Source: an uncultured bacterium (GTDB lineage: Bacteria > JAAXHH01). Taken from it: DNA of 32,268 nt. The DNA is taken from positions 1 to 32,268 of the forward strand of contig CAJXCW010000027.1 of NCBI GenBank assembly GCA_913051705.1, written 5' to 3'. The translations under genes were made by a program, and so were the position numbers. The notes beneath the pieces are model-generated. The model ran no database searches and was not told the origin of the DNA. It was given only the letters and a program-made list of their open reading frames with translations. Shown here one piece after another: positions 778 to 24,251 of this stretch (position 1 is its first letter; each line of letters opens with the position of its first letter).

Positions 778-849
778 TTGAATTATGAATGTTGAATTAT
801 GAATAAAAAAATTTGGATCAACATTCATAATTCAACATTCATAATTCAA
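778..849. repeat. Perfect 27-bp inverted repeat built from tandem 14-bp units
   Basis: The left arm (778-804) and right arm (823-849) are exact reverse complements across an 18-nt A-rich loop. Each arm is nearly two copies of the 14-mer gttgaattatgaat, and a degenerate third copy lies to the left (from about 764). It fills the space between the 133-aa gene and the next PhyH gene, ending about 8 bases before the latter's ribosome binding site. It could act as a terminator or mRNA-stabilising hairpin, but no T-run follows. Confidence 0.85.
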
Positions 850-868
850 AAACAACAAGGGGTTGTGG

Positions 869-1660
869 ATGAAGCCAGATTTCAAATCGTTAAAAAAACA
901 ATTCATGGACGCCGGATATGTGATCCTCGAAGATTGGTTTGATCCGGCGTTGGTGGAGCAAACATTCAAAGATGGCATGGAATATAAAGGAATTTCCATC
1001 TTTGAATGTGAGCGAGTCGGGGATCTACTCTGTCATCCGCGTGTGGTTGAACTGGTGGCGTTTATACTGGGAACACCTGATGTCGCCATCAGTCCCTTCC
1101 GTTTCTGGAACCATCTTGTGACCGGACCCGGTGATGGCGGTGGCTGGCATGTGGACGACACCTGGATGGCCAATCGACCGCTGACGGAAATCCTGTGTAT
1201 GTATTACCCACAGGACGTGACAGAGGAAATGGGGCCTACGATGGTGCTACCCGGAAGCCACCGCCGGCTGTATACGCCGCCTCAGACGTCGAAACTCGGC
1301 TGGATTCGTGGTCAGGAGAAGCTGACTGTTACAGCAGGAACGCTCGTTATGACCTGCTCTTCCATCCTCCATGCCAAAGCGGCGCATGGCTCCGATCAAC
1401 CCCGGTCTATGATCAAATACGGCTACGAAGCCTCAGATCCGAAATACGGGTATTATCTTACGCAGGAAGTCTATGATAATTTAAGACGCACGGATCTGGG
1501 CCAGTCTCTGACGAAATATGCCGAAGTGAAAGACAAAAGAGAGGCCGTATGGAACAGCTACTGGGACTTTCATCAGAGCTATACGTTTCAGGATTTCAAA
1601 CATCAAATCGGCATCGCAGGTCGTGCATTGCGTAAACATCTGGAGCATGAGCAGGGGTAG
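869..1660 (+). CDS. Phytanoyl-CoA dioxygenase (PhyH) family oxygenase
   Basis: A 263-aa member of the Fe(II)/2-oxoglutarate-dependent PhyH family, cytosolic and of usual length. The facial triad is visible: HxD in GGGWHVDDTW (His94, Asp96) and the distal His173 in AAHGSDQPRS, with Arg179 as the likely 2-oxoglutarate anchor. PGSH lies between them, as is common in the family. I chose ATG 869 because AAGGGG (857-862) sits six bases upstream; a TTG two codons earlier would overlap that site. Members hydroxylate very different substrates, including phytanoyl-CoA, ectoine and small metabolites, so the substrate is unknown. Clustering with further PhyH genes suggests a lineage-specific expansion. 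Confidence 0.88.
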   Translation: MKPDFKSLKKQFMDAGYVILEDWFDPALVEQTFKDGMEYKGISIFECERVGDLLCHPRVVELVAFILGTPDVAISPFRFWNHLVTGPGDGGGWHVDDTWMANRPLTEILCMYYPQDVTEEMGPTMVLPGSHRRLYTPPQTSKLGWIRGQEKLTVTAGTLVMTCSSILHAKAAHGSDQPRSMIKYGYEASDPKYGYYLTQEVYDNLRRTDLGQSLTKYAEVKDKREAVWNSYWDFHQSYTFQDFKHQIGIAGRALRKHLEHEQG

Positions 1661-1676
1661 GCGATTATAGATAATT

Positions 1677-1740
1677 GGGTGATTGGGTGATTGAAAAAAT
1701 CAAATCAACAAATTAGGCAGGCCGGTAGGCCTTTCAATCA
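1677..1740. repeat. Tandem gtgattg words with an inverted counterpart
   Basis: Immediately after the PhyH stop the sequence reads ttgggtgattgggtgattg, a 7-bp word repeated. The inverted form caatcaccaa occurs about 45 bases later. Between them is the small palindrome aggccggtaggcct. It adjoins the longer element starting at 1735, so the whole 1661-1907 gap is repeat sequence without a gene. Confidence 0.6.
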
Positions 1741-1845
1741 CCAAATCAACAAAAAGCACAGCGAGCGAAGCGGAGCGTGTTTTAACTGATGCCTCGAAGA
1801 GGCGTTCATTACTTTCGATTGAGCGCAGCGAAATCAATCAACAAA
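1735..1845 (+). repeat. Interspersed ~105-bp intergenic repeat, copy A
   Basis: This stretch is repeated in inverted orientation at 17281-17382. Shared blocks include aagcggagcg, a small gcctc/gaggc hairpin, and ttactttcgattgagcg followed by agcgaaatc. Both copies are bounded by atcaccaa-like words in the same orientation, so the ends are direct rather than inverted repeats. No frame is conserved through it. It lies in the gap between the PhyH gene and the DUF481 gene. Confidence 0.85.
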
Positions 1846-1907
1846 CCCCGGAGGGCCCGCATCGTGTCCAAAGGACACATCCCATCACCAAATTGGGCAA
1901 GGTTTCA

Positions 1908-2678
1908 ATGAAACAACTAAACTATCTGTTTTCAGTTCTACTTCTGATTCTCTTCAATGCGCCTTCGTATGCCCAGGTGAACATTGAAGAATATAGACAG
2001 GAAGAAGGCGACACCGGATTCTCGGGCAGTTTTGCCGCAGGGGTGGAGGCGCAGACAGGTAACACGGATATTCAAGAGCTGGCTGTGGAAGGCCGTCTGG
2101 ATTACGTCAGGCCCACTGTGACTACCTTTATTCTGACGAATAGTGAATTCGGTTGGGAACAGGGACAACGTTTTTCGAACGAAGCCCTGGTGCATTTCCG
2201 GCAGATGTACCAGTTACGGGAAGGGTTTCGCCTGGAGATGTTCGGCCAGTACAATTTCGATAAGACGATATTTCTGGACACGCGTATACTTGTAGGCGCC
2301 GGTCTGCGATTTCGATTGATTGACCACCCGGCCTTTCATCTATGGCAAGGATCGGGATACATGCTGGAACATGAGCGTCTGGGCATTCCTGTCCTAGCAA
2401 AACACCCCAACCGAACGACGGTAAGCCGATGGAGCAATTATCTATCTTCCCGATTCAATATCAATGACCGGGTCGGCTCCGCCTGGACCGTATATATCCA
2501 ACCGCAGTTCCGTGCCATGCGGGATTTCCGGCTGTTAAGCGATATCAACCTGGAAGTCGATCTCGGCGGTCCGCTTGTATTGGTCCTGTCCTATCAGATG
2601 AGATATGACAGTCGCCCGCCCAGCGGCATAAAAAAGATCGACACCAAAATTGAAAATACGGTCGCCATTGTTTTTTAA
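1908..2678 (+). CDS. DUF481-family outer-membrane beta-barrel protein
   Basis: 256 aa from ATG 1908. A TTG five codons earlier is possible, but the ATG places a clean signal peptide at the N-terminus: Lys-containing n-region, SVLLLILF core, and cleavage after SYA before QVNIEEY. The mature part shows alternating hydrophobic strands rich in aromatic residues (GFSGSFAAGVEAQTGNTD, LEMFGQYNFDKTIFLD, LVLVLSYQMRYDSRPP) and ends in a hydrophobic strand with terminal Phe, as is usual for BAM-assembled barrels. The GNT-containing first strand and length fit DUF481 (YdiY-like, salt-induced outer-membrane proteins); the function of that family is poorly known. It implies a two-membrane envelope. The leader is occupied by repeats. 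Confidence 0.78.
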   Translation: MKQLNYLFSVLLLILFNAPSYAQVNIEEYRQEEGDTGFSGSFAAGVEAQTGNTDIQELAVEGRLDYVRPTVTTFILTNSEFGWEQGQRFSNEALVHFRQMYQLREGFRLEMFGQYNFDKTIFLDTRILVGAGLRFRLIDHPAFHLWQGSGYMLEHERLGIPVLAKHPNRTTVSRWSNYLSSRFNINDRVGSAWTVYIQPQFRAMRDFRLLSDINLEVDLGGPLVLVLSYQMRYDSRPPSGIKKIDTKIENTVAIVF

Positions 2679-2742
2679 CGCCCCATCATCGTAGGGCAGA
2701 TCAATGTGTATGCCCAAAAATAAAACCAATCAGGAGTTCACC

Positions 2743-3519
2743 ATGACCGGTGAAGAGATTATCAGAAGGTATGAAGAAGACGGATATGTCGTTATACCTG
2801 AAGTACTTGATCAGGATCTAACCAGAGAAGCGCAGGGCCATATCGAGTGGATGGGAAAAAAATATCCTGATATACGGCCGGAAGGCTATCACCATGACCT
2901 GATTGTAGATGATCCGTTCTGGATTCGCCTGTGTACAGACGCGCGGCTAATAGATGTAATCGAACCGTTTCTCGGACCGGATATTGCATTATTTGCGGCA
3001 CATTATATCAGCAAGCCACCTCGAACCGGGTTGCCGGTTCTCTGGCATCAGGACGGCAACTACTGGCCACTGGAGCCTATGGAAGTGATTACCATCTGGC
3101 TGGCAGTTGATGATTCTACAACTGAAAACGGATGTATGCGGGTGATACCGGGGACGCATAACGGTCAAAAATTATACAAACACCGTTCTGAAAAAGATAA
3201 AGCCAATGTCTTGAGTTCAACATTGGATGAGTATCTAGATGAGGAGAAGGCCACCGATGTCGTTGTCCCTGCCGGTGGCGTTTCCTTGCACGATCCGTTT
3301 CTGATACACGGTTCCGAAGCCAACCTTTCCGACAAACGCCGGGGAGGGCTGACCCTCCGATATATCCCCACAACCACCCGAATCAAACGGGAAAACTTTC
3401 CGGCTTACCTTTGCCGAGGCAAAGCCATCGAAGGGGTCAATACCTACCCCCCTCTGCCCCATTTTCGCGCAGAAGATCACTATCCATTTAAAGGGTGTGA
3501 CCAGCCGCCGTGGGGGTGA
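2743..3519 (+). CDS. Phytanoyl-CoA dioxygenase (PhyH) family oxygenase
   Basis: A 258-aa PhyH-family Fe(II)/2-oxoglutarate oxygenase. The N-terminal EEDGYVVIPEVL is the usual opening of the fold. Metal ligands are His102 and Asp104 (LWHQDGNYW) and His189 (LIHGSEANLS); Arg200 in DKRRGGLTLRY is the likely co-substrate ligand. The start is set by AGGAG (2732-2736) six bases before ATG 2743; ATGs at 2704 and 2710 lack such a site. It lies 64 bp after the DUF481 gene. Its TGA falls inside a perfect inverted repeat shared with the convergent gatD remnant. The substrate is unknown. It differs clearly from the other complete PhyH gene here, so they are not recent duplicates. Confidence 0.9.
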   Translation: MTGEEIIRRYEEDGYVVIPEVLDQDLTREAQGHIEWMGKKYPDIRPEGYHHDLIVDDPFWIRLCTDARLIDVIEPFLGPDIALFAAHYISKPPRTGLPVLWHQDGNYWPLEPMEVITIWLAVDDSTTENGCMRVIPGTHNGQKLYKHRSEKDKANVLSSTLDEYLDEEKATDVVVPAGGVSLHDPFLIHGSEANLSDKRRGGLTLRYIPTTTRIKRENFPAYLCRGKAIEGVNTYPPLPHFRAEDHYPFKGCDQPPWG

Positions 3520-3600
3520 AGGAAGCAAGTGGGCAGGTGGGCAAAAAACGATGTAACATCATTTCTATACCTGCCCACCTGCCCACTTGCTTCCTTCACC
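3515..3600. terminator. Perfect 29-bp inverted repeat spanning both stop codons of convergent genes
   Basis: Arms 3515-3543 and 3572-3600 are exact reverse complements with a 28-nt loop. Each arm begins ggtgaagg, so the TGA of the PhyH gene (3517-3519) and the TGA of the opposing gatD frame (3596-3598) occupy equivalent positions in the two arms. The arms carry the 8-bp word gggcaggt/acctgccc also found at 4361-4390. A very stable hairpin at the end of both transcripts would suit bidirectional termination or 3'-end protection. No U-tract is present, so factor-independent termination is not certain. Confidence 0.7.
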
Positions 3601-4338
3601 TCCCCGCCTGATCAAGCACACGCTGATGTGCTTCCCATTCCAATTCGTCGTCGAGGGGAATAAGAGGGACATCACCATAGCGACGTTTTAACGCCAGATG
3701 GATTAAATAGTCGGTGAAATGCGGGTTGCGCGGCAAAATCGGTCCGTGAAGATAGGTGCCGAAAATATATTCCGTCCGGCACCCTTCAAAGGCATCTTCG
3801 CCGTTGTTCCCCTGACCGATAATCCGGCGTCCTAACGGTCGGCCGGTCGGTCCCAGAAACGTCTTGCCGCTATGGCTTTCGAATCCGACAAGCGTATTGG
3901 GGCTAAGCCAGTCGCATTCTATGATAATATCTCCCGACATAACCTCATCGTTATCGACAGTCCATGTATCAAGCAGGTGGATGCCGGGAATACGACCGCC
4001 GTCTTCCGCTTCGAAAAATTGGCCTGATAACTGGTAACCACCGCCCGTCAACAGCATGACGGTTTTCTGCGCTGCCGCATCCTGTAATGCCTGCTCCTTG
4101 CTCTTCTTCAGGTCGTCTGCAACAAAGGTCTGCATCCGCCAATCCTGCCCGCCGCCGAAAAGAAGCAAATCAAATAGGCCGATGCCAGAGTGTCCCCGAG
4201 TGATATGGATTGGGTTTCAATCTCAATACCACGCCAGCGGCACCGGTTGGTCAGGATCAGCAGATTACCGTAATCTCCGTTGATACGCATCCGATCCGGG
4301 TAGAGAACCCCAATGCGCAGGGTGATGTTGTTGTTCAT
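3596..4338 (-). pseudogene. gatD: GatD-like glutamine amidotransferase subunit, frameshifted and lacking the catalytic Cys
   Basis: GatD releases ammonia from glutamine for MurT, which amidates the alpha-carboxyl of D-Glu in lipid II. The N-terminal part (from ATG 4338: RIGVLYPDRMRINGDYGN ... SLGDTL) and the C-terminal part (LLLFGGGQDWRMQ ... GTYLHGPILPRNP) lie in two frames that must be joined near 4170-4180. One missing base, or two extra T, restores a normal GatD of about 245 aa. The C-terminal half retains the conserved His (YLHGP), but the nucleophile loop reads LLTGGGYQLSG, with Gly (codon 4043-4045) where families have Cys (ICGGYQ-like). The murT gene lies upstream on the same strand. 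It may be a decayed gene, a sequencing indel in a divergent gene, or a protein with a non-enzymatic role. Confidence 0.75.
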
Positions 4339-4360
4339 AAGCTACAAAGGTTATATTTTA

Positions 4361-4390
4361 CTTGCCCACTTGCCTACCTGCCCACCTGCC
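4361..4390. repeat. Tandem tgcccac-type words between murT and gatD
   Basis: The short murT-gatD spacer contains cttgcccacttgcctacc followed by tgcccacctgcc. These are the same 8-bp words as the right arm of the hairpin at 3572-3600 (ctgcccacctgcccacttgc). No inverted partner is seen within the spacer. It appears to be one more member of the intergenic word-repeat family, sitting inside what should be an operon junction. Confidence 0.6.
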
Positions 4391-4396
4391 GTATCT

Positions 4397-5755
4397 TCAC
4401 AAAACCCCCAGCTCTTTCAACGATTGTCTCAGCTCAAACATAGCCGTATCAGTGGCCATAACCCAGAGCCGGGCATTGTCCGGCATATGGCGCATGGTCT
4501 GGTGAAAGGCATCGTCTATATCGATATTCACTTCCGTGACTTCTACCCCCGCATGTTTGAGTCTCAATACAAGATGATCGGCGCCGGAACCGGCAACATA
4601 TATTGTGCTGGTCCGTGTGGCCAGCACCTCCAGATCCGCATCCCAGATCCAGGAGACATCCCCACCGGCGTCGATCTCATCGTCTACTAAAAACAAGTAA
4701 CGGGAGGGGTGGCCATCCATGAACGTCGTTCTCAGTGTTTCGTTAAGAGAAGTGGGGTTCTTGATCAGCATCAAGCGTGCTTGTCTGTTGTGAATGGTCA
4801 CCCGCTCATCGCGACCGAACATCGGCACGGCCTTTTCCAGACCGGCCCGAATGGTCGCCGTTTTAACGCCAAGGGAGACCGCGGCAGTTGCAGCAGCAAC
4901 GGCGTTATAGACATTATACAAACCGGTCAGGCCAAGATGTACATCCAGCGGTCCCTGAGGGGTGATAATACGAAAACGGGATTCGTTTGAATTGATTTCA
5001 ACATTGATGGCATAGATGGTAGGCATCGGCCGTTCCCAGCCGCAGGTACTGCACCTGTAGTCTCCTAAGTGTGCCAGGGCCACAAGTCGGTAGGACAGGA
5101 CGGTGCCACAGCGATAACACCGGGTAAAACGGGCGGCACGAGACTCGATAGCCAACCGCTCATCCTCCACACCGAAATACGTGACGCGAGGTGGGACGCC
5201 ACGGACAAATCCACCGCACAATATCGGATCGTCGGCATTGATCAGCAGATGATGTTCTACAGTCAGGGTATTGAATAGACGTCGCCATTCCCGCATTAAG
5301 GCATCGGTTCCGCCTTCGAAATCCAACCCGTCTAAATATAGATTGTTTAACACGAAAAGCCGCGGATTACATATGCTCACGGCTTCATACAACATCCTTG
5401 AATCGAACCCGAATATGCCGTAATGGGCATGAAGACCTCCCTGTATGTTCGAAGCCTGAACCAGCGTAGAGATGACCTCATCCAGCGAAGCGGCTACCTC
5501 TTGAGTATGCAACGTTTCATGCCCCGCATGTTGTAAAATTTCCGCCAGAAACCGACTGGTCGTACATTTTCCATTTGTTCCGGTTATGATAACAGGTTCG
5601 TTTTCTAACTGGCTGATCAAATCACCAGCCAGTCGAGGCCATAGGGAAGCAATACAAGTACCGGAGGGAATACGTCCTCGCGTCAGTTCAAACGTATCGG
5701 CAGCACGGGTGATGAACTTATCAAGCGCCAGAGCGGCGGAACGCAGCAGACCCAT
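4397..5755 (-). CDS. murT: MurT, lipid II isoglutaminyl synthase ligase subunit
   Basis: 452 aa, usual MurT length. Mur-ligase central domain with the ATP loop GTNGKCTTS (59-67), then the zinc ribbon specific to MurT within the central domain (Cys213, Cys216, Cys235, Cys238), FGRDERV (313-319), KNPTSLNETLR, and a C-terminal DUF1727 domain with DVSWIWDAD (366-374), the region that supplies the Asp of the composite GatD triad. MurT activates the D-Glu carboxyl of lipid II with ATP and uses GatD-derived ammonia. The family is best known in Gram-positive bacteria, so its presence next to outer-membrane genes is notable. Oddity: Cys64 (codon TGT) replaces the Walker-A Thr. No good ribosome binding site precedes the ATG. 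Confidence 0.9.
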   Translation of the reverse strand: MGLLRSAALALDKFITRAADTFELTRGRIPSGTCIASLWPRLAGDLISQLENEPVIITGTNGKCTTSRFLAEILQHAGHETLHTQEVAASLDEVISTLVQASNIQGGLHAHYGIFGFDSRMLYEAVSICNPRLFVLNNLYLDGLDFEGGTDALMREWRRLFNTLTVEHHLLINADDPILCGGFVRGVPPRVTYFGVEDERLAIESRAARFTRCYRCGTVLSYRLVALAHLGDYRCSTCGWERPMPTIYAINVEINSNESRFRIITPQGPLDVHLGLTGLYNVYNAVAAATAAVSLGVKTATIRAGLEKAVPMFGRDERVTIHNRQARLMLIKNPTSLNETLRTTFMDGHPSRYLFLVDDEIDAGGDVSWIWDADLEVLATRTSTIYVAGSGADHLVLRLKHAGVEVTEVNIDIDDAFHQTMRHMPDNARLWVMATDTAMFELRQSLKELGVL

Positions 5756-5763
5756 GGGAGATT

Positions 5764-5882
5764 AATGGTAAGTTAGTGAGGTGGTGAGGTGGTGAGGTGG
5801 CACGCACTCCGTTATGTTATTTCTTGCCTTGCTGCTAATCTGGTGCTTTGCTGTTTTGCTTTTCAATCACCAAACCACCATT
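5764..5882. repeat. Intergenic repeat: three exact gtgaggtg copies with an imperfect inverted end
   Basis: Positions 5776-5799 are three exact tandem copies of gtgaggtg. The left flank aatggta... is imperfectly complementary to caatcaccaaaccaccatt at the right end (5864-5882). The 129-bp gap between murT and the next gene therefore holds only this element. The terminal caatcacca word is the same as in the elements at 1735 and 17382. Confidence 0.55.
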
Positions 5883-5884
5883 TT

Positions 5885-6958
5885 CTACAGCGTTTCCCAT
5901 ACCTTGTCCCGATAGGCCAGTTTGACGACCAGGCTTTGCCAGGGCTGGTGAACTAAGACGGCAATATATCCATCATCGGTTGCTCGGTATAAGATTTTAT
6001 GGTCCAGCTTCAACGGCTGCATAGCATCGCCGCCAACAGGTTGGGGTCGAACTTCCTGTAGGATCGCCCGCAAACGTGACTGTGTAGCCTCATCCATCTT
6101 TTTGACCTGGAAAACCAGAAAAGGGACGGCACCTATGGAGGCAAAACCATATAAGCCGGGACGAAGGTCCTGCGGCATATTGGGCGGATAAACACGGTTG
6201 TCTACATCGGGATATAGAGGATAATTGGCACCGAACCAATGAGAGATAGCGAATATGGATCGCTGAAACTCAGAAGCGTTGACCGCATGACTCGTGGGAA
6301 CCCGATTTGAAGGCATCCAGGACGTACGGCGTCTCTGTTTATCATCACGCCAAAAATCTCTTGGGGTTTGAAGATGCGCCAGGACGCGTTCCATATTAAC
6401 GGCTTCCCGATTGCCTCCCGCCTTTCTAAGTCCTCTTAAGGCATCTTCAAAATCCCCCCGATAAGCATAAACCCGGGCCGATAGAAGGCGTGTGGCCTCT
6501 GTCCCCTTATTCAAGGGAATCTGGTTGATGGTGGCTATACAGGCGCTATAACGCCCGGCTTTAAGATGTCGCCGTGCCAGATTATTCAGATCCATATCCA
6601 TGGGGGGGGGAGACGTCAGGGCGAGGATCTGTTCACTCACGATCTCCGACTCACGAAATTGCCCCATAGTTTCATAGGTCTGAGCTAACTCGGTTAAAAC
6701 CATATTCCGCCTGTCATCGATTATCTCGATGGCCAGCTTGCTTTGAACATCGGCAGGAATAGCATACAGACCGATAGTGTAATACCCAAGGCCCTGAACA
6801 CGCCGCGCGTCCTGTTGTAAAGCAACGCTTATTCCAGGCTTGTCGATCAGGCCCCTGAGCAGCCAGAATGCTTCTTGTCTGCGTACCCAATTCTGGAACG
6901 GAATATGCGTGGTGGTCCGCATCTCCCGGGAGGATCGCAGGAATAAGCTTTCCGTCAT
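5885..6958 (-). CDS. Hypothetical TPR-like protein, 357 aa
   Basis: Start supported by AGGAG nine bases upstream of ATG 6958. The first 85 residues contain two or three hydrophobic helices but no clear signal peptide. Residues about 88-180 read as three helix-turn-helix repeats of tetratricopeptide type (LAQTYETMGQFRESEIVSEQ; LARRHLKAGRYSACIATI; SARVYAYRGDFEDALRGL). The C-terminal 160 residues form an unknown, probably globular domain (GLYGFASIGAVPFLVFQVKK). TPRs mediate protein contacts; no partner can be named. Codons 117-119 (Pro-Pro-Pro) are an uninterrupted run of nine C on the coding strand, prone to slippage. It lies 126 bp from murT in the same direction but with repeats between, so co-transcription is uncertain. 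Confidence 0.65.
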   Translation of the reverse strand: MTESLFLRSSREMRTTTHIPFQNWVRRQEAFWLLRGLIDKPGISVALQQDARRVQGLGYYTIGLYAIPADVQSKLAIEIIDDRRNMVLTELAQTYETMGQFRESEIVSEQILALTSPPPMDMDLNNLARRHLKAGRYSACIATINQIPLNKGTEATRLLSARVYAYRGDFEDALRGLRKAGGNREAVNMERVLAHLQTPRDFWRDDKQRRRTSWMPSNRVPTSHAVNASEFQRSIFAISHWFGANYPLYPDVDNRVYPPNMPQDLRPGLYGFASIGAVPFLVFQVKKMDEATQSRLRAILQEVRPQPVGGDAMQPLKLDHKILYRATDDGYIAVLVHQPWQSLVVKLAYRDKVWETL

Positions 6959-7194
6959 TTACGCTAGCTCCTGATCTTTCTCATCCTGATCCTGAGCGAA
7001 AGTGACGTCAATAGACAGTAAGCACATGACACAAACAAAGTGTAAGAATCGACCGGGTAAAGACACAACCCTCCCTGGAAAGGATCTTTCATCAATCGGT
7101 TCATGTATATTCACTATCGCGCGGACGCGGCTTATATCCGTTTGTACTTACACCGCGCGCTGTGTGACCTACACCTACTTGCCCCTGCTACCTA

Positions 7195-7602
7195 TTATAC
7201 TTTAACACCGCGCCATTCGTTGCGGTCACTAGAAATATCAATCACATTGCCGTCAGGATCGATCGCTTTAAATGCAATATCAGGCAAAGTCTCAGTATCA
7301 ATATCGTACCGGCCTTTTACTGTTTTCGGCCTTTCTGCTCCCCAGACTTTAATCCGTTGCCAGATGGCCTCAAGGTCATCGACCAGAATACCGAAGTGGA
7401 TATATTCCTCACCTTCTTCAAGAACAGGTCGTGGTTGATTGCCGTGGGGAAGCAGGGTGATATTGGAGGTGCCATCACTCAGATCGACAGCTGCACCCTC
7501 ACCACGATAGCCGACGAACGTAAATCCGATGACTTCTTCATAAAATCGACGGGATACAGCCACATCACGGCAACGCAAAGCGAGATGACGTAAGAAAGCC
7601 AT
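7195..7602 (-). CDS. VOC superfamily (glyoxalase/dioxygenase-like) protein
   Basis: 135 aa, the size of a single-chain VOC protein with two beta-alpha-beta-beta-beta modules. Module one starts FLRHLALRCRD with His6, a usual metal ligand; module two starts EEYIHFGILVDD with His69 and ends DPDGNVIDIS, where Asp122 occupies the position normally held by the metal-binding Glu. The paired YEEVIGF motif of module one is also typical. The ATG has AGGAG six bases upstream. Family members include glyoxalase I, extradiol dioxygenases, epimerases and resistance proteins; none can be preferred. It lies 104 bp downstream of the Tat aminotransferase-like gene on the same strand. Confidence 0.85.
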   Translation of the reverse strand: MAFLRHLALRCRDVAVSRRFYEEVIGFTFVGYRGEGAAVDLSDGTSNITLLPHGNQPRPVLEEGEEYIHFGILVDDLEAIWQRIKVWGAERPKTVKGRYDIDTETLPDIAFKAIDPDGNVIDISSDRNEWRGVKV

Positions 7603-7706
7603 GAGAAACTCCTGCTTGACAGCATGGTCGCAAGCTGTATACCATATAAATGTTCAGCAATCAGCAAATTAAAGGTTGAGACCGATAATTCATCAATCAA
7701 CAATTG

Positions 7707-10590: not shown

Positions 10591-10603
10591 GGACGACAAC
10601 CTG

Positions 10604-11269: not shown

Positions 11270-11290
11270 TAAAATGAGAGGATACGAACC

Positions 11291-16013: not shown

Positions 16014-16256
16014 ATGAAAAGGCGTGAGATCCTGGAATCTGCCTTTACTATCCTGGCGATCCTGGCCCTATGGCCGGTTATCCTGGGGTGGAAACATCCC
16101 ATTTATAATATCATGCTGGGCGTTATCCTGATCATTTTCATTGTCCTGGTCATTAACAAATTCCGGCGCGTAAAACACATGTATGAGGAAAGCAAAATAG
16201 AAGCAAAAAAACGCCCTCCCGGACCGCCGGATCCGAGAGATATGTTTCAGCCGTAA
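16014..16256 (+). CDS. Small two-helix membrane protein, 80 aa
   Basis: Two hydrophobic helices (ESAFTILAILALWPVILGW and IMLGVILIIFIVLVINKF) joined by a short loop, then a basic segment (RRVKHMYEESKIEAKK) and a Pro-rich tail (PPGPPDPRD). The positive charges after helix two suggest both ends are cytoplasmic. GAGG lies about eight bases before the ATG. I do not recognise a family. It ends 10 bp from the convergent aldo/keto reductase. The 90 bp before it contain no other gene. Confidence 0.65.
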   Translation: MKRREILESAFTILAILALWPVILGWKHPIYNIMLGVILIIFIVLVINKFRRVKHMYEESKIEAKKRPPGPPDPRDMFQP

Positions 16257-16266
16257 ACGAGGAGGG

Positions 16267-17247: not shown

Positions 17248-17280
17248 AAATAATCCCTTTCCGGATAGAGTCCTAGCCAA

Positions 17281-17382
17281 TTTGGTGATGGATTTCGCTA
17301 CGCTCAATCGAAAGTAAGGAACGCCTCTTTGAGGCATTATTAAAACGCGCTCCGCTTTGCTCGCTCTGCTTGTTGGTGATTG
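17281..17382 (-). repeat. Interspersed ~105-bp intergenic repeat, copy B
   Basis: The reverse complement of this stretch matches copy A (1735-1845) over nearly its full length with scattered substitutions and two short gaps, sharing agcgagc, aagcggagcg, gttttaa, gcctc/gaggc, ttactttcgattgagcg and agcgaaatc. It fills most of the 178-bp gap between the isomerase and aldo/keto reductase genes on the minus strand. Confidence 0.85.
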
Positions 17383-17425
17383 AAATGTTTTCTGCCCACT
17401 GCTTTCTGCCTACCGCCTACCGCCC

Positions 17426-18271
17426 CTACCCATCCCTCGGCACACCGGATTCCAGAAACGCCTTCTCCAGCGTCTGATAGCACATCGCCGCTGCGGCCAT
17501 CGGATCATAGTCCGGTCGCCTCTGCACCATATAGCTTACCTCTGCTGTAATGGAACCGGTATATCCGGCTTCGTGCATGGCTTGCAAATACGCTACGAAA
17601 TCAAAATCCCCTTCGCCCGGTATCAGAAACTCAAAATCCGGCGCCCTGCCTCGTTGATCTTTTACGTGGGTATGAGCCGCGTCGGGCGCCATGAGCCGGA
17701 CGGACTCTTCGGTCGATATCCCCATAATGTCAAAATGACTGATATCGAAATTGTGCTTCATATAAGGAGAATTAATAGTATGTATCAGATCGACCGCCTT
17801 CTCCACCGTATCAAGCGCAGCGCCGGTATGGGCCTCCAGGCCGATGACAACCCCTCTTTCTCCAGCATAATGGACCAGCGCCCACACACGCTCGATAATA
17901 AAATTCTGTTTTTCGTGCCAGTCGTCGGGCGAACCGCCGAGGACGGTATCCAACACCGGTTTACCCGTTCCATCCGCCCATTCGGCGCACAGATCAACGG
18001 CTTTCGTCAACACCTTCATATTCTCTTCATGGTCATCCGGTGCCTCAGCCAGCAAAGACCGATGAGCGGCAATTGCCGGCATCGCCAGCCCATGCTGATC
18101 ATACAAGCCTTTTATCCGTTTTCGCTCACTCGGCGTCAGCGTGTCGATGGCCGTAGTATAGTTCGGTAATACCGTCAATTCAACAGCATCAAAACCCTGC
18201 TTCGCCAGAAAAGGAATGGCATCATCAATAGGCACCTTCGGCATACCCCAAGTTGTGTAACCAATTTGCAT
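17426..18271 (-). CDS. Sugar phosphate isomerase/epimerase-type TIM barrel protein
   Basis: 281 aa, typical for the xylose isomerase-like TIM-barrel (AP_endonuc_2) family. The metal ligands expected at strand ends are Glu146 (GLEAHTG), Asp176 with His179 (NFDISHFD), His202 (HTHVKDQRG) and Glu244 (ITAEVSYM). The N-terminal QIGYTTWGMP and GFDAVELTV are also typical. Members isomerise or epimerise ketoses or act on inositol derivatives. GAGGAA about seven bases before the ATG fixes the start. It lies 88 bp downstream of the Gfo gene, on the same strand; such pairs occur in polyol and rare-sugar catabolism. Confidence 0.88.
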   Translation of the reverse strand: MQIGYTTWGMPKVPIDDAIPFLAKQGFDAVELTVLPNYTTAIDTLTPSERKRIKGLYDQHGLAMPAIAAHRSLLAEAPDDHEENMKVLTKAVDLCAEWADGTGKPVLDTVLGGSPDDWHEKQNFIIERVWALVHYAGERGVVIGLEAHTGAALDTVEKAVDLIHTINSPYMKHNFDISHFDIMGISTEESVRLMAPDAAHTHVKDQRGRAPDFEFLIPGEGDFDFVAYLQAMHEAGYTGSITAEVSYMVQRRPDYDPMAAAAMCYQTLEKAFLESGVPRDG

Positions 18272-18333
18272 ATTTAATTCCTCAGCATTTAGTTCCTGGA
18301 TTCATTGTATAATCGACTGCGGACATTAAGGTT

Positions 18334-18354
18334 TTCAATCACCATTCACCAATC
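18334..18354. repeat. Short caatcacc/caatc word repeat
   Basis: tcaatcaccattcaccaatc lies in the 88-bp gap after the Gfo gene stop. It carries the same caatcacc word as the elements at 1735, 5866 and 17382, here as a solo fragment with no inverted partner. Confidence 0.45.
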
Positions 18355-18359
18355 TTTTT

Positions 18360-19595
18360 TTAACCGGGAATACCCAACGCCTCATCGATCTCCTGCTGAT
18401 AGCCGTAGACCTGACAGGCTTCGATCTCCTGCATGCTGACCGACCGACCGGCCAGGGAGGATTCTAAAATTGCATAGACCGCCGCCACATCCTTCAGGCC
18501 TTCGAGCCCATCGAGTTCCACCTGCCGCCCATGGAGGATGGCTTCTCCCAGTTCGAAATATTCCAGGGCGATAAGCCGCCAGTCTACGTTTTCTGCACCG
18601 ATGCAGTCGGGGAAAAAGTGGGCAGCCAACGGCTCCAACTCGAAGTCGGACGCCATCTCTACAAGGGCTTCGTGCCCTTCCTTATCCTTGCCTTTGCGCT
18701 GTATTTCAGCACGCCCCCCGCGGGTGCCGTAACTCGCAATCTGTCCCTCCTCACAAAGGATCATCTCACCACCGATCCCGCCCGTACCGCCACGACCCAT
18801 GATCCAGTTGACCATAATCCCGCTTTCCATGCGGAACAGAGCAACAGACACGTCCTCCGCCGTAGCGGGGACCGATTCTTCCATCGCCCTGTGGCGGTTC
18901 TGGTAGAACGTATACTGATCACCGATGGATTCAGGTTTGTAGCGTAATTTTTCCAGCAACCGGGCATCACCGTAGACCTCGGCAATATCCCCAAGTTGGT
19001 ATCGGATCAAATCGGTATAATGTACCCCCATGTCAAGGATAGGCCCCCCTTTATCTTTGATATGACGCCAGGGCGTGATAAAGATGGTATTACCGCCGCC
19101 GAGGGCGTGACACCAGGCCAGGTAAGGCTTCCCGATCCACTCTTTTTCCAGAATATGGCGAATCAGGCGGGCCGATGGATCACGCCGGTAGTTTTCCGCC
19201 ACCGAGAGAATGCGGCTGTGGCGCGCGGCCGTGTCGATCATCATCCGGCAGGCGCCTACGGTGATGGCCATCGGTTTTTCGACCATCACATGCCAGCCCA
19301 GCTCAAGCGCCCGGCAGACGACCGTATGATGAACCGACGGATCAGTGACAACGGAAACGGCGTCGAGATCCGGTATGGCCACCGCCATCGTTTCCATGTC
19401 GGTGAAAACAGCCGGTTTATAACCAAAAAGTGTTTCCGCTTCCGAGGCGGCCAGTTCCGCATTTTCAAGACGGATATCACAGACCCCCACAGGTTCAATG
19501 TTATTGAACGGCGAGGCCAGAAGTTCCCGCATGCCGTACAGATGACGCGTCCCCATGCCGCCGCAACCGACAAGCGCCAGCTTGATCTTAGACAT
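18360..19595 (-). CDS. Gfo/Idh/MocA-family oxidoreductase
   Basis: 411 aa. NAD(P)-binding N-terminus KLALVGCGGMGTRHLYGM, EKP at 106-108 (VMVEKPMA), and GPILDMGVHYTDL with Asp188 and His192 in the substrate domain. It is slightly longer than the common 330-390 aa. These enzymes oxidise sugar or inositol hydroxyls, or remove groups through a keto intermediate. The ribosome binding site AGGAG (19601-19605) lies within a short palindrome, and a 15-bp hairpin is further upstream, so translation or transcription may be regulated at the leader. It heads the isomerase and aldo/keto reductase genes. Confidence 0.92.
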   Translation of the reverse strand: MSKIKLALVGCGGMGTRHLYGMRELLASPFNNIEPVGVCDIRLENAELAASEAETLFGYKPAVFTDMETMAVAIPDLDAVSVVTDPSVHHTVVCRALELGWHVMVEKPMAITVGACRMMIDTAARHSRILSVAENYRRDPSARLIRHILEKEWIGKPYLAWCHALGGGNTIFITPWRHIKDKGGPILDMGVHYTDLIRYQLGDIAEVYGDARLLEKLRYKPESIGDQYTFYQNRHRAMEESVPATAEDVSVALFRMESGIMVNWIMGRGGTGGIGGEMILCEEGQIASYGTRGGRAEIQRKGKDKEGHEALVEMASDFELEPLAAHFFPDCIGAENVDWRLIALEYFELGEAILHGRQVELDGLEGLKDVAAVYAILESSLAGRSVSMQEIEACQVYGYQQEIDEALGIPG

Positions 19596-19597
19596 AA

Positions 19598-19611
19598 TGA
19601 CTCCTGAGTCA
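19598..19611 (-). promoter_or_regulatory. Palindrome tgactc-ct-gagtca containing the Shine-Dalgarno site
   Basis: The inverted hexamers flank two central bases directly upstream of the start codon at 19595. On the coding strand the AGGAG is inside the palindrome, so a bound regulator or a hairpin would block ribosome access. The small size makes an operator more plausible than a stable hairpin. Confidence 0.4.
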
Positions 19612-19619
19612 ATGCGTTA

Positions 19620-19654
19620 CGCTTTAAACTGGATATCGAATCCAGTTTAAAGCG
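19620..19654. terminator. Perfect 15-bp hairpin with a 5-nt loop
   Basis: Arms 19620-19634 (cgctttaaactggat) and 19640-19654 are exact complements around atcga. It lies 25 bp upstream of the Gfo start and about 140 bp downstream of the DUF559 gene on the same strand. No T-run follows on either strand, so it could be a processed or Rho-assisted 3' end, an attenuator in the Gfo leader, or part of a repeat. A second small hairpin (ccccg/cgggg) follows near 19665. Confidence 0.6.
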
Positions 19655-19796
19655 GCGAATTCATCCCCGACCACAGGGCGGGGCGACCTTCGTAACTTTC
19701 GTGAATAGAAATTAAATGTGAGCAAGAAAATATACGGCGGGAAAAATACTGGCAAGCAGAATTGATAGTAGCAACCTGGGTATATTTAGATATTGA

Positions 19797-20159
19797 TCAG
19801 GTAGCTGCCAGAATTTCCTCAAGGACATTAAACAGGTCATATCGCACACGATCACTTGAAAATCTCAGGATGCGCAGTCCACATGCCTTCAGTACCTGTT
19901 CCCGTTTTGCATCTTGTTTTTTTCGTCGCTCATGGATGGGGTCTTCTATTTCTATGATGAAACCGGCAGCCCGGCAGTAAAAATCAACGATAAATCCTTC
20001 TATAATATGCTGACGCCGAAAATGGAACCCGTTGAGACGATTTGTTTTTAAAAATCCCCAGATCGTTTTCTCAGCAAGCGTCATAGATTGCCGTAACGTT
20101 TTCGCAACGTGTCGTTTTCGCCGAGTATGTCCCTCGCAAATGATCACTGATTTGTTCAT
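19797..20159 (-). CDS. DUF559-family endonuclease-like protein
   Basis: 120 aa, normal length for this Vsr/PD-(D/E)XK-like family. Recognisable parts are LRQSMTLAEKTIWGFLK, the basic NGFHFRRQHII, FIVDFYC (Asp59), FIIEIEDPIHERR (Glu70, Glu72) and LRILRFSSDRVRYDL. The usual family text is E-x-D-G; here it is E-I-E-D, so the second metal ligand is Glu rather than Asp and activity may be altered. GAGGAG six bases before the ATG supports the start. These genes are common, often solitary, and their biological role is poorly known. Flanking gaps contain hairpins, which fits a mobile or recently inserted gene. Confidence 0.85.
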   Translation of the reverse strand: MNKSVIICEGHTRRKRHVAKTLRQSMTLAEKTIWGFLKTNRLNGFHFRRQHIIEGFIVDFYCRAAGFIIEIEDPIHERRKKQDAKREQVLKACGLRILRFSSDRVRYDLFNVLEEILAAT

Positions 20160-20255
20160 TATCTTCTCCTCAGTGTAAATATCATTGTCATTTCCCTGCG
20201 TCCGCTCTATAATAGTCGTAATACTCTCCCAAATCTCGTATCACCATGTAAAATA

Positions 20256-20301
20256 AAACCCCATCTCCTCCCCTTCCCATTCAAGGAAGAGGCCGGGGTT
20301 T
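20256..20301 (+). promoter_or_regulatory. Pyrimidine/purine hairpin in the leader of the Asp-box protein gene
   Basis: aaacccc (20256-20262) pairs with ggggttt (20295-20301), and cttcc (20273-20277) with ggaag (20285-20289), giving an interrupted hairpin. It ends seven bases before AGGAG of the following gene, the same placement as the hairpins at 12454 and 14201. Confidence 0.45.
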
Positions 20302-20318
20302 AGGTCCAGGAGCCCAAT

Positions 20319-23300
20319 ATGCCACGCTATTTCTCAGCTTTACTCATACTGATCACGGCCACATATCCCCTTTCCGCTCCCCTTTCCGCGCAGGAGTTAA
20401 CCTCCGAGACGTTACACGGACTCGAATTCCGCAACATCGGTCCGGCCGCCATGAGCGGTCGTGTTGTGGATCTTGCGGTGTTGGAGAAAGACCCATACAC
20501 CTTCTACGTGGCCTCGGCGACCGGCGGACTGTGGAAGACGACCAACAATGGAGTGACCTTTAAAGTCGTGTTTAAAAACGAAGGAACGCATTCCATTGGT
20601 GACGTGGTTGTACACCAGAAGGCCGACAGTCTCGTATGGGTCGGCACAGGAGAGCGGGCTAACCGCCAGAGCTCATCATGGGGGGACGGCGTATACAAGT
20701 CGATGGACAGCGGCACGACGTGGACCAATATGGGCTTGCGGGATTCCCATCACATCGGCCGGATCGTGATGCACCCTGATGATCCGAATACCGTATATGT
20801 GGCCGCCATGGGGCATCTGTGGGGGCCTAACGACGAGCGGGGGTTATATAAAACGACCGATGGCGGCAAGACCTGGAATCGTGTGCTCGGCATAGATGAA
20901 CATACCGGTATTGTGGATGTGGCCATGGACCCCGATGATCCGAATATCCTGTATACAGCCGCCTATCAGCGACGGCGACGGCCCTACGGCTTCCACGGCG
21001 GTGGCCCGGGCAGTGGGCTGTACAAGACGACGGATGGTGGCGCTACCTGGCAGGAACTGACGAGCGGACTCCCGGCAGGGGATAAAGGACGCATGGGTAT
21101 TTCTATTTACCGAAGTGATCCGAACATCGTGTACATTTCCCTTGAGCAGGGGTACCGGTACAATGCATCCACCGCCTACAACGAACGGCGTGCAGGGCTC
21201 TATCGGTCCGAAGACAAGGGCGAGACCTGGACCTATACGGGCAACTGGAATCCACGGCCCATGTATGCCAGCCAGCCGCTAGTGGACCCCAACGACGATC
21301 AGCGGATCTACATGATGAACCGATACAGCTATTCGGAAGACGGCGGTAAGACCTTCCGCGCGCCTCGACAGTCTCTTCATGGGGACGACCGGATACTGTG
21401 GGTGAATCCAAAGGACTCCCGCCATGTGATCAAAGGGGACGACGGTGGTGTAGGCATCTCTTATGATCGCGGCATAACGTGGTTGTATGTCACCTCTTTA
21501 CCGGTAAGCCAGTTCTATCGTGTCAGCGTGGATATGCGCAAACCGTATTGGGTCTACGGCGGCCTGCAGGATAACGGCAGTTGGGCCGGTCCCGGCGCGA
21601 CCTATCTCAGTGACGGCATTCTGAATAACGAATGGATGAGGACCGGCGGCGGCGACGGCTTCGTCAATCTGCCGCACCGGGAAGATGAAAACACCCTCTA
21701 TGTCGAATCTCAGTACCTCGGATTATCTCGGTTTGATCTGAACACCAGGCAGCGCCGCGCCATCCGACCGGGTGATTCCAAAGGACGTATCGGCCCTCGA
21801 CGTAACTGGGATGCCTGGGGCCCGGGCACGCCGGAACCGGAACTGGGCAATGCCATGGCGCCGGGCAACTGGGACGGCCCGTTTATCCTGTCGCATCACG
21901 ACCCCAATACGATCTATGCGGGTACCAACATCCTGTGGAAGAGTACAGATGGTGGGGACGCCTGGACTGCCCTGGGTGACCTGACTACCGGCGTTAACCG
22001 TCGTAACCTGCCTATTATGGGCATGGCGCCGCACGATACAACACTCTCACTCGACGACGGTATTCCATACTACCCGACACTCACGGCTGTCGCTGAATCA
22101 CCGATGGATCCGTCGCTGCTCTATGCCGGTAGCGATGACGGTAATTTTCAAGTTTCGCGTGACGGGGGACAGACCTGGATTGAAGCCTCTGCCCGGATGC
22201 CCGGCCTACCCCGAAGTACCTGGATCAATAGCATTGAGCCTTCCCGGTACGAAGAGGGTACGGTCTACGTGGCCATCAATAATTACCGTAACGACGACTT
22301 CACCAATTATGTGTACCGATCCGCCGATTACGGCGCCACATGGCAAGCCATCACGAATGGCTTGCCCGACAGGCGGGTGGCGCGAACCATCCGCGAAGAT
22401 CCAAAAAATTCCGATCTTCTGTACCTGGGCACGGAGTTGGGTCTATTTATCTCGTTAGACCGCGGTGACCGCTGGGTCGAACTCAGAAATAATCTGCCGC
22501 TGGCAGCGATAAACGATCTGGTCGTTCATCCACGAGACAATGATCTGGTACTGGGCACCCACGGTCGTGGTATCTGGATTCTGGATAATCTGTCAGCCCT
22601 CCAGGAACTTACCCCTGAAGTCCTCGCCGCCGATGCCCATCTCGCCGGTATTCCTGATGCGGAAATGATTCGCTACACCCGTGCCCACGCCCATGCGGGT
22701 GACATGATTTTCCGGGGCAAGAATCCGGCGGCAGGCGCTTTGATCGACTACTATCTGAAAGAACCGGCGGCTAAAGACGCTATACAGCTTGCCATCCACG
22801 ATGCAGCAGGTACGTTGATCCGTGATCTGGCGCCGGATTCTACAGCCGGAATCAACCGGATGGTCTGGGATCTTCGCTACCCCAGACTACCAGCAGCACC
22901 GGTGGATACGCTCAATATCGACCACACGTTGATCCGTACCCGAAATCCATCACCAGATGGTCCATCCGGTCCGTGGGTCACACCAGGCCTCTACACCGCT
23001 CGCCTTACGGTCAATGGCCGGACACACAGCAGGACCTTTATCGTTGACGAAGATCCACGTATCAACCTGCAGGTCGAACAACGCCGCCGATGGACCGACA
23101 CCCTGCTGGAGATCGCAGATCTGTACACCCTGCTGGCGGCTGATAACACGGGTATTCAGCCGGTAATATGGCAGGTCGAGAAATATCGGAAAGAAAACAA
23201 AAAACTTGATGAAAATGCTGCGATCAAAATCGAAGAGACCGGTCGACTTTATTCTGAGTTATTCAGCCGGGTACGCTCCCTTTATAGTCATGTTTCCGGC

Positions 23301-23459
23301 TGGCCGGGACCTCTGACCACCGATCAGCACTCACAGTGGGTGTACTACCAGGACATGTACGAAAGCTTTATCTCATTAAAGGAAGATTTTAATAAAAAAC
23401 ATCTGCCGCGATTGAATAAAAAACTAGCGAAAGAAGACCGCATTGCGACAGGTTTGTAA
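20319..23459 (+). CDS. Secreted Asp-box (BNR/sortilin-like) beta-propeller protein, 1046 aa
   Basis: Signal peptide (YFSALLILITATYPL, cleavage near LSAQ), then SETLHGLEFRNIGPAAMSGR, the usual opening of bacterial VPS10/sortilin-like propeller proteins. At least ten Asp-box repeats (S/T-x-D-x-G-x-T-W) follow, e.g. KTTDGGKTWN, KTTDGGATWQ, RSEDKGETWT, KSTDGGDAWT, VSRDGGQTWI, RSADYGATWQ, over residues about 60-720, enough for two propellers. The last ~250 residues contain a beta-sandwich-like part (GLYTARLTVNGRTHSRTF) and a helical tail. Sialidase catalytic residues are not apparent. Probably periplasmic or cell-surface; members are often annotated as glycosyl hydrolases without proof. AGGAG lies six bases before the ATG. 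Confidence 0.88.
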   Translation: MPRYFSALLILITATYPLSAPLSAQELTSETLHGLEFRNIGPAAMSGRVVDLAVLEKDPYTFYVASATGGLWKTTNNGVTFKVVFKNEGTHSIGDVVVHQKADSLVWVGTGERANRQSSSWGDGVYKSMDSGTTWTNMGLRDSHHIGRIVMHPDDPNTVYVAAMGHLWGPNDERGLYKTTDGGKTWNRVLGIDEHTGIVDVAMDPDDPNILYTAAYQRRRRPYGFHGGGPGSGLYKTTDGGATWQELTSGLPAGDKGRMGISIYRSDPNIVYISLEQGYRYNASTAYNERRAGLYRSEDKGETWTYTGNWNPRPMYASQPLVDPNDDQRIYMMNRYSYSEDGGKTFRAPRQSLHGDDRILWVNPKDSRHVIKGDDGGVGISYDRGITWLYVTSLPVSQFYRVSVDMRKPYWVYGGLQDNGSWAGPGATYLSDGILNNEWMRTGGGDGFVNLPHREDENTLYVESQYLGLSRFDLNTRQRRAIRPGDSKGRIGPRRNWDAWGPGTPEPELGNAMAPGNWDGPFILSHHDPNTIYAGTNILWKSTDGGDAWTALGDLTTGVNRRNLPIMGMAPHDTTLSLDDGIPYYPTLTAVAESPMDPSLLYAGSDDGNFQVSRDGGQTWIEASARMPGLPRSTWINSIEPSRYEEGTVYVAINNYRNDDFTNYVYRSADYGATWQAITNGLPDRRVARTIREDPKNSDLLYLGTELGLFISLDRGDRWVELRNNLPLAAINDLVVHPRDNDLVLGTHGRGIWILDNLSALQELTPEVLAADAHLAGIPDAEMIRYTRAHAHAGDMIFRGKNPAAGALIDYYLKEPAAKDAIQLAIHDAAGTLIRDLAPDSTAGINRMVWDLRYPRLPAAPVDTLNIDHTLIRTRNPSPDGPSGPWVTPGLYTARLTVNGRTHSRTFIVDEDPRINLQVEQRRRWTDTLLEIADLYTLLAADNTGIQPVIWQVEKYRKENKKLDENAAIKIEETGRLYSELFSRVRSLYSHVSGWPGPLTTDQHSQWVYYQDMYESFISLKEDFNKKHLPRLNKKLAKEDRIATGL

Positions 23460-23510
23460 ATACGCTGGATGTCCCAACACAACCAACACCTCAATTAAGG
23501 AGATCGTCCT

Positions 23511-23885
23511 ATGTCAACAGGTGCTATGAACGTCCTTGGCGGTCCACTCGAGTTATGCTGTACAGATCCGCTGACCGGTTTTTACCGCGATGGCTCCTGT
23601 AACACCGGATCTGGTGATGCAGGTGTGCATGTGGTCTGTGCAGAAATGACAGGCCGTTTTCTGGCGTTTTCGAAGGCGACCGGCAATGACCTGAGTACGT
23701 CGGCACCTGAATTCGGCTTTGAAGGTTTGAAGCCCGGCGACCGCTGGTGCCTCTGTGTCCTCCGCTGGAATGAAGCCTACGATGCCGGTGAAGCTCCCCT
23801 GGTCCTTCTGGCCTCCACGCATGCTATGGCGCTTGAATTTGTAACCCTGGAAGCATTGCAGGAATACGCGGCGGATATGGAGTGA
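23511..23885 (+). CDS. DUF2237-family protein
   Basis: 124 aa. The segments MNVLGGPLELCCTDPLTGFY, RDGSCNTGSGDAGVHVVCAE, FSKATGNDLSTSAPEFGF, GLKPGDRWCLCVLRW and VLLASTHAMAL form the DUF2237 pattern, a small conserved cytosolic protein with several Cys and no assigned function. AAGGAG lies about eight bases before ATG 23511; the Met six codons later is a less supported start. It follows the propeller gene by 51 bp and may be co-transcribed with it, though no functional link is known. Confidence 0.9.
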   Translation: MSTGAMNVLGGPLELCCTDPLTGFYRDGSCNTGSGDAGVHVVCAEMTGRFLAFSKATGNDLSTSAPEFGFEGLKPGDRWCLCVLRWNEAYDAGEAPLVLLASTHAMALEFVTLEALQEYAADME

Positions 23886-23897
23886 GTAACAATTCCC

Positions 23898-23926
23898 TTG
23901 ATTTTTTACATATATTTTATTATACA
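23898..23926 (+). promoter_or_regulatory. Probable sigma-70 promoter for rpmG-rpmB
   Basis: TTGATT (23898-23903) and TATACA (23921-23926) are separated by 17 bases in a very AT-rich stretch, 88 bp before the rpmG start. A perfect palindrome gatttg-aat-caaatc (23951-23965) lies just downstream and could be an operator; gggatccc (23971-23978) follows. Confidence 0.5.
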
Positions 23927-24013
23927 TTAACATTCTGGGTTTTATCTGATGATTTGAATCAAATCCTTTAGGGATCCCTTATTCAGGGACATTCGTTGTT
24001 GAGGAGCAAGATT

Positions 24014-24175
24014 ATGGCCAAGAATAAGAACCGTTCTCTGGTGAAGCTGAAAAGCACCGAGAGCTCACATTGTTACTACACAAAGAAGAATCGGCGGAAT
24101 ACAACGTCCCGTATGGAACGTAACAAATACGATCCCACGCTGCGTAAGCATGTATTGTATCGTGAAACGCGGTAG
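24014..24175 (+). CDS. rpmG: 50S ribosomal protein L33
   Basis: 53 aa beginning MAKNKNRSLVKLKSTESSHC and containing YYTKKNRRN and KYDPTLRKHVLYRETR, the L33 pattern. It is the zinc-free (C-minus) form: only one Cys and no CxxC pairs. GAGGAG (24001-24006) lies seven bases before the ATG. It has its own probable promoter and is followed by rpmB, with a long hairpin between them. L33 sits near the tRNA exit site of the large subunit. Confidence 0.9.
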   Translation: MAKNKNRSLVKLKSTESSHCYYTKKNRRNTTSRMERNKYDPTLRKHVLYRETR

Positions 24176-24179
24176 GGGG

Positions 24180-24251
24180 GAAACTACGAATCAACAAATC
24201 GCGAATCAACGAATCGGGAATTGATTCTCTGATTCGTCGTTTCGTAGTTTC
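24180..24251. repeat. Long hairpin of cgaatcaa words between rpmG and rpmB
   Basis: gaaactacgaa (24180-24190) and ttcgtagtttc (24241-24251) are exact complements. Inside, caacgaatc and gattcgtcg also pair, and the 8-9-bp word cgaatcaac recurs three times in the left half. The hairpin begins five bases after the rpmG stop and ends about 25 bases before the rpmB ribosome binding site. It may set the L33/L28 ratio by partial termination or differential stability. Confidence 0.7.

Follow-up and report, generated by a model that had tools for sequence, protein, structure and literature searches.

Background

The DNA uptake sequences of Neisseria and Haemophilus are very abundant short words that form lineage dialects and occur as inverted pairs at gene ends; each genome uses one non-tandem word, frequent in genes too. 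Heptamer repeats of the word TAACTGA have been described in Beggiatoaceae and also in cyanobacteria and Bacteroidetes, with slippage suggested as the source of their 7-nt unit (PMC4679880), and heptamer long simple sequence repeats have been reported (Mrazek 2007, as cited in PMC4679880). In Geobacter metallireducens, the class 1-3 'global regulator binding sites' (Gmet_I) use three different words and have been proposed as IHF/HU sites (PMC2700814).

Here we analyze a family of tandem 7-8-nt words found between the genes of an uncultured bacterium. Compared with uptake sequences, these elements share abundance and inverted pairs and differ in that uptake sequences consist of one non-tandem word. 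Like the Geobacter sites, which comprise three to five tandem octa- or heptanucleotides each in opposite-strand pairs, they occur in many copies with several words per genome and place opposite-strand tandem 7/8-mers at variable distance, a likeness of layout; insertion sequence (IS) elements lie near class 1 in Geobacter (PMC2700814). The Geobacter sites amount to tens of pairs and three words, whereas the arrays here number about 1,300 and draw on tens of words, and the polarity, mirrored variation and gene-edge rule described below are not stated for the Geobacter sites in the passages of PMC2700814 drawn on here. They are the closest precedent found, and the present architecture is thus not wholly undescribed: an earlier note on this DNA had judged it unlike known patterns, which holds for REP and MITE families, whereas the layout had already been published for G. 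metallireducens (PMC2700814). With the heptamers of Beggiatoaceae and cyanobacteria the elements share intergenic position, a 7-nt unit, 2-6 copies and a patchy distribution over phyla, but Beggiatoaceae genomes use one word each, sited ahead of start codons and nearly always direct (169 direct sets, one indirect; PMC4679880). REPINs and BIMEs likewise are inverted pairs of short repeats in gaps, with fixed polarity, hairpins and hundreds of copies, but the REP unit is a fixed ~16-mer associated with RAYT transposases (PMC3116915), whereas the words here are variable and tandem, with no Y1_Tnp protein. A search of the open-access literature, which was not exhaustive, found no paper on a many-word lexicon with such a grammar. 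Heptamer repeats have earlier been reported singly, bacterium by bacterium; here tens of words follow one rule set, which points to a little-described DNA process that, in several lineages of bacteria, writes such hairpins where genes adjoin.

Materials and methods

The window, that is, the whole stretch of DNA analyzed (32,268 nt), makes up contig 27 in full; the metagenome-assembled genome (MAG) to which it belongs has 5.45 Mb in 405 contigs and is 97% complete. The host was described as a Latescibacterota-like MAG; the nearest named relatives of its MurT-type protein are Latescibacterota MAGs and one labelled Gemmatimonadetes. Together with 80 further stretches of the genome, the window makes up a sample of 1.63 Mb, of which an earlier subset covered 831 kb. 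Gene calls came from a simple model of codon usage, by which about 86% of the DNA is coding, and the gaps between genes (n=1,007 in 1.63 Mb) were compared with genes. Tandem arrays were called by TRF, and word hairpins in the window were scored as folding-energy z against shuffles. The orientation of words was defined from hairpins, W denoting the G-rich array and W' the complementary one.

Results

Words, hairpins and dispersed modules in the window

The earlier note had reported tandem words in six gaps of the window, usually mirrored into hairpins. TRF and the sequence itself confirm 7/8-bp words in all six. Four of these gaps also fold far beyond shuffles (z -5.1 to -12.7), whereas those at 4361 and 5764 do not. 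The elements are as follows.

764..849, word hairpin with unit TTGAATTATGAATG (14 = 2x7), arms 764-795 and 818-849, z -9.6
1674..1753 (folded segment 1672-1756), word hairpin, z -5.1
1750..1840, + strand, copy of module A, a repeat of ~91 nt dispersed among gaps and containing three small stem-loops
1844..1883, - strand, copy of module B, a ~40-nt dispersed repeat with two small stem-loops
3509..3606, word hairpin with unit GGGCAGGT, 35-nt arms that are 94% complementary, z -12.7
4359..4390, - strand, array of the word GGCAGGTGGGCAGGTAGGCAAGTGGGCAAGTA (as read on the - strand) with no hairpin, lying between the murT stop and the gatD start
5776..5800, + strand, array of GTGAGGTG x3.1 that points away from the start of the murT-like gene
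5860..5880, - strand, facing arm built from another word (TTTTCAATCACCAAACCACCA on the + strand), adjoining the stop of the gene at 5885-6958
17286..17375, - strand, second module A copy of the window, followed by GGTGATTG at 17375-17382
18330..18353, - strand, single C-form arm TTTTCAATCACCATTCACCAATC, adjoining the neighbouring gene
24180..24251 (folded 24178-24252), word hairpin with unit CGAATCAA/CGAAACTA, z -5.4

The hairpin at 764-849 begins 1 nt past the stop codon at 760-762, that at 3509-3606 covers both stop codons of a convergent gene pair, and that at 24180..24251, with arms 86% complementary, lies between rpmG and rpmB. At 1674..1753 the left arm is built from ATTGGGTG/GGTGATTG and the right arm from CAATCACC/AATCAAC; the module A copy that follows is flanked by AATCA(A/C)C words and the module B copy by GGTGAT words. 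The segment 4340-4396 holds a direct array alone (z +1.9), and the fold of 5764-5884, in which the left word GTGAGGTG stands opposite the unlike right word CAATCACC, is not significant (z -0.6). An Rfam search of the window gave no match.

The window matches the word CAATCACC 9 times where 1.46 would be expected, a number reached in 0 of 100 shuffles. Six of them lie in gaps (1678, 1686, 1735, 5864, 17375, 18336) and three within genes, so that this single word is not strictly intergenic.

Abundance and period across the genome

The pattern extends well beyond the window. Across the 1.63 Mb, intergenic TRF arrays number 151 at period 7, 183 at period 8 and 66 at periods 14-16, with at most 10 at every other basic period, and genes show no 7/8 period peak although they make up 86% of the DNA. 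These 400 arrays occupy 290 of the 1,007 gaps, which extrapolates to about 1,300-1,340 arrays in the full genome. Being head-to-tail 7-8-nt units in gaps, they are heptamer/octamer simple sequence repeats (STRR/LSSR). Longer word forms are about 40-fold to more than 100-fold denser in gaps than in genes (AATCACCAATC, for instance, occurs 51 times in gaps and twice in genes), and clustering yielded 78 distinct 7/8-mers among 185 arrays, a few of which recur many times.

A scan for inverted repeats, as the earlier note had proposed, gave 17 intergenic and 0 genic instances of score at least 18 in 831 kb. In the full 1.63 Mb the ratio is 14 to 0 at score at least 20, while scores of 18-19 include 3 genic cases; three rounds of shuffled gaps (831 kb) contained no inverted repeat of score at least 14. 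Such hairpins are hence neither as frequent within genes nor expected by chance, and the feature is real, dense, rule-bound and far above chance.

Layout of arrays and hairpins

An inverted partner in the same gap was found for 103 of 311 arrays, against 12 with a direct partner and 8 in random array-bearing gaps, about nine and thirteen times fewer, respectively; the earlier wording, 'usually mirrored', was therefore too strong. Within the hairpins, differences from one word to the next are mirrored in the opposite arm in 102 of 162 cases (63%), compared with 33% between loci. The order of the arms is fixed. Adjacent arrays of one word, called strictly, read W..W' in 38 cases and W'..W in none, and the more independent test offered by adjacent arrays of different words gives 9 versus 1; a looser word search also favours W..W', by 99:7 for same-word and 48:16 for different-word pairs. 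G outnumbers C in the 5' arm of 54 out of 57 informative word hairpins (54:3, p=4e-13). Arms have copies elsewhere in 50 of 61 instances, whereas the spacers, with a median length of 29 nt, are unique in 30 of 40.

Orientation relative to genes follows a rule as well. Lone arrays face away from whichever gene is nearer in 123 of 160 cases (p=5e-12) and, read in gene sense in tandem gaps, W predominates after stops (53:22) and W' ahead of starts (37:6). Word content may by itself account for some of this bias, because some W forms contain TGA and can supply a stop, and a GTG- or TTG-bearing W would probably be harmful ahead of a start. An A-run lies on the inner side in 84 and on the outer side in 36 of 290 cases. 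The layout rules hold whichever word is used: period, mirrored arms, G-rich 5' arm, outward orientation and inner A-run are common to different words, which bears out the earlier description of a variable text in a fixed form. Overall, the earlier observation is partly confirmed and its interpretation is supported.

A rival reading takes the elements for functional signals at junctions, recognised in RNA or by RNA polymerase: hairpins at 3' ends, or G-rich pause/R-loop elements, that would serve as insulators, terminators or stabilisers of mRNA. Many arrays do lie close to stops (87 of 139 within 20 bp in ++ gaps), stem energies fall well under those of shuffles, the hairpin at 3509-3606 bridges two convergent stops, and hairpins are 4-fold rarer in divergent gaps (0.13 vs 0.53 per kb). 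Convergent gaps, however, show no special excess of hairpins, there is no T enrichment past the 3' arm in 78 hairpins, and a terminator scan leaves the word hairpins unflagged. Elements also sit inside the conserved operon-like pairs murT-gatD and rpmG-rpmB, where a terminator would be harmful. Mismatches that would be G-U or A-C in the transcribed sense number 85:82, without bias, so the symmetry belongs to DNA and not to RNA. An early G-U excess suggesting RNA-level selection (54:39 in 831 kb) disappeared at twice the data. Lacking both the T-run and a G-U bias, the hairpins are neither intrinsic terminators nor RNA structures visibly kept by pairing, and we consider an RNA-level role unlikely; these results caution against labelling such word hairpins terminators or small RNAs. 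If the elements arose recently, however, selection on RNA would have left few marks.

Recent addition and spread across lineages

Two conserved junctions bear on the age of the elements. Between murT and gatD there are about 60 nt with a GGGCAGGT array here, against -1 nt (a one-base overlap, TGATG) in G001, a genome of the same family, and +3 nt in G014. From the last codon of rpmG to the start of rpmB there are 116 nt including the hairpin here, against 20-28 nt in seven relatives. Relatives are thus about 60-90 bp shorter at these two junctions, which marks the elements as recent additions; on this comparison of sequences, they would most simply have been added within operon-like pairs after the genera separated.

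Among about 20 small samples from other genomes the trait is patchy: G031 and G033, like G080, look positive, the first two in small samples, and most others do not. The lexicon is denser still in G080, a 1.0-Mb genome outside the order (AGAGGCAC, ATTGGTA, TTCTGAC, TGTTAGG), and G001 has few arrays, with another word (GAAGTTTGAAGGGTGAAG). Over 191 genomes, GGTGATT x3 occurs at 36 places here, at 2 in G080 and in none of the 189 others. Two words looked for in viral contigs turned up no more often than their reversed controls did (4 vs 8; 5 vs 4), so the text is not specially shared between lineages. The form recurs where the text does not: all word hairpins from G001, G080, G014 and G031 and from unrelated viral contigs (five hairpins in the latter, two of them identical in sequence) have the G-rich 5' arm, mostly with other words; a non-word perfect palindrome in G044 was left out of this set. 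Because lineages with other words obey equal rules, why the units are of 7-8 nt, intergenic and patchy becomes testable.

These distributions also bear on the proposal that the words are binding sites for DNA-binding proteins, kept by selection for nucleoid organisation or as DNA-uptake-like signals. The roughly 1,300 arrays per genome are comparable to uptake-sequence density, and the paired inverted 7/8-mers of G. metallireducens have been interpreted as protein sites in the relevant passages of PMC2700814. Against it, more than ten unrelated words coexist in one genome, each locus shows mirrored drift, and the commonest word is missing from other members of the order, making selected protein sites a very improbable explanation.

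Origin of the elements

Unique spacers, recurring arms, mirrored variants, strand-symmetric polarity, symmetry at the DNA level and the absence of target duplication together suggest local fold-back synthesis. Our preferred reading, held tentatively and at somewhat less than even confidence, is that the elements are DNA-level simple-sequence elements of gene junctions, arising by slippage growth and strand-biased fold-back (template-switch) copying. A gap word of 7-8 nt would be multiplied head to tail by replication slippage into a G-rich array W; the nascent G-rich strand would then fold back and be copied by the polymerase, as in quasipalindrome-type template switching, leaving W' 3' of W and transferring word variants to the opposite arm. 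Since DNA synthesis extends 3' ends only, the order would be 5'-W-spacer-W'-3', identical when read from either strand. Repeated template switching could maintain the likeness of the arms, and selection would clear such DNA from genes, leaving it in gaps, mostly directly past stop codons. The murT-gatD array may represent a stage preceding the hairpin. The ingredients have precedents: template switching homogenises inverted-repeat arms (PMC8604942), can give rise to hairpins (PMC8794818) and is known in E. coli (PMC7202029). If copying is by strand-biased fold-back, arms should be added on the 3' side, variants should be mirrored and array length should be polymorphic; the arrays would then be sensors of replication slippage and template switching.

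Several observations weigh against this reading. Its weak point is that local copying leaves the recurrence of one word at tens of loci unexplained, ectopic template switching and an enzyme both being candidate routes for word spread. It does not fully account for the outward orientation of lone arrays, nor does it explain the inner A-run, and fold-back of the C-rich strand should at times yield W'..W, of which there was no instance among the 38 strict same-word pairs. Neutral slippage alone was rejected, as it can give neither the 38:0 polarity nor word recurrence. An assembly artefact was also rejected, because independent genomes and records show these patterns, as does the published genome of an isolate.

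The main rival to slippage and fold-back copying is REPIN-like mobility, in which each word family would be the terminal repeat of a non-autonomous (REPIN/BIME- or MITE-like) element moved by a transposase in trans. Words present at many loci with a fixed inside/outside polarity, and hairpins newly added at junctions, are what such mobility would produce. Most spacers, however, are unique, and direct repeats of at least 4 nt flank 4.9% of elements versus 4.3% under random pairing, so that there is no target duplication; MITEs are further set apart because copies here are not alike end to end. Nor is there a conserved non-tandem palindromic unit of ~16-40 nt as in REPs and REPINs, the words being tandem and of 7/8 nt. 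No RAYT was detected, PF01797 (Y1_Tnp) giving 0 matches in the 97%-complete genome with control genomes positive, and PF00078 (RVT_1) likewise gave 0 matches in the genome, which leaves no reverse transcriptase for mobility or for a retroelement origin (retron, group II intron, DGR). Apart from local gene duplications, the 1.63 Mb contained no sequence of more than about 150 bp in several copies, although short-read assemblies lose IS elements, and one polarity rule holds across different words and lineages. The missing Y1_Tnp protein and flanking repeats and the mostly unique spacers agree with the earlier statement that no REP/BIME or MITE pattern fits, and we regard mobility as possible but doubtful.

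A further reading, which we consider rather unlikely, is that the elements form a distinct class of bacterial genome element. A writer would place tandem words of 7-8 nt where genes end and turn them by copying into mirrored hairpins, all under a single grammar (G-rich 5' arm, orientation away from genes, A-run on the inner side). The words would turn over fully from lineage to lineage and the grammar would persist across phyla, implying a dedicated trans-acting enzyme. If it exists, such an enzyme would represent a new type of genome-writing activity.

Modules A (91 nt, 17 copies in 1.63 Mb) and B (40 nt, 15 copies) have sharp edges and are mostly embedded in GGTGATT-type words. Their dispersal, with edges sharp within word context, favours mobile elements, and since both look like dispersed elements, some trans-acting spread exists. 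They are the exception to the rule that copies are not alike over their full length.

Dispersed repeats and word lexicons

Module A, a dispersed repeat of ~91 nt lying between genes, is present in 17 copies in the 1.63 Mb sampled from the host genome (the window and 80 further stretches), and module B, a repeat of ~40 nt, in 15.

Module copies in the window
1750-1840: module A, dispersed intergenic repeat
1844-1883, minus strand: module B, dispersed repeat
17286-17375: module A, second copy

Small stem-loops (GCCTCGAAGAGGC and others) lie within module A, copies of which are adjoined by AATCA(A/C)C-type words or, at some places, by CGAAAC-type words instead. Module B carries TTCG-type loops (GTGTCCTTCGGACAC, GAGCCCTTCGGGGTT), and most of its copies sit exactly within GGTGAT words. 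In G080, a 1.0-Mb genome of another lineage, the 7/8-mer lexicon is even denser than the host's: 7.8 kb of gaps hold 29 arrays whose period is 7 or 8 (stretches L175-L178).

Other palindromes, the first of them not built of 7/8-mers, were observed in the sampled stretches; the two REP-like ones are apparently distinct repeat families.

Palindromes by stretch
L015 7187-7347, L029 16776-16819, L134 15685-15800: dispersed, centred on GGGTGTACGGGAAGTT/AACTTCCCGTACACCC
L018 498-572, L031 5097-5180: REP-like, CGCCCGCAGGAGCGGGCTCCTACC
L159 16758, L174 11719 (G001, from the host's family): REP-like, GGGCGGGTTTCAAACCCGCCC

Genes of the window

863-1657 and 2704-3516: PhyH (phytanoyl-CoA dioxygenase) genes, with a DUF481 gene in between
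3596-4341, minus strand: gatD, the murT partner

A frame change near 4170 breaks gatD, leaving its N-terminal part in one reading frame and the remainder in another; this reflects either a pseudogene or an assembly error.
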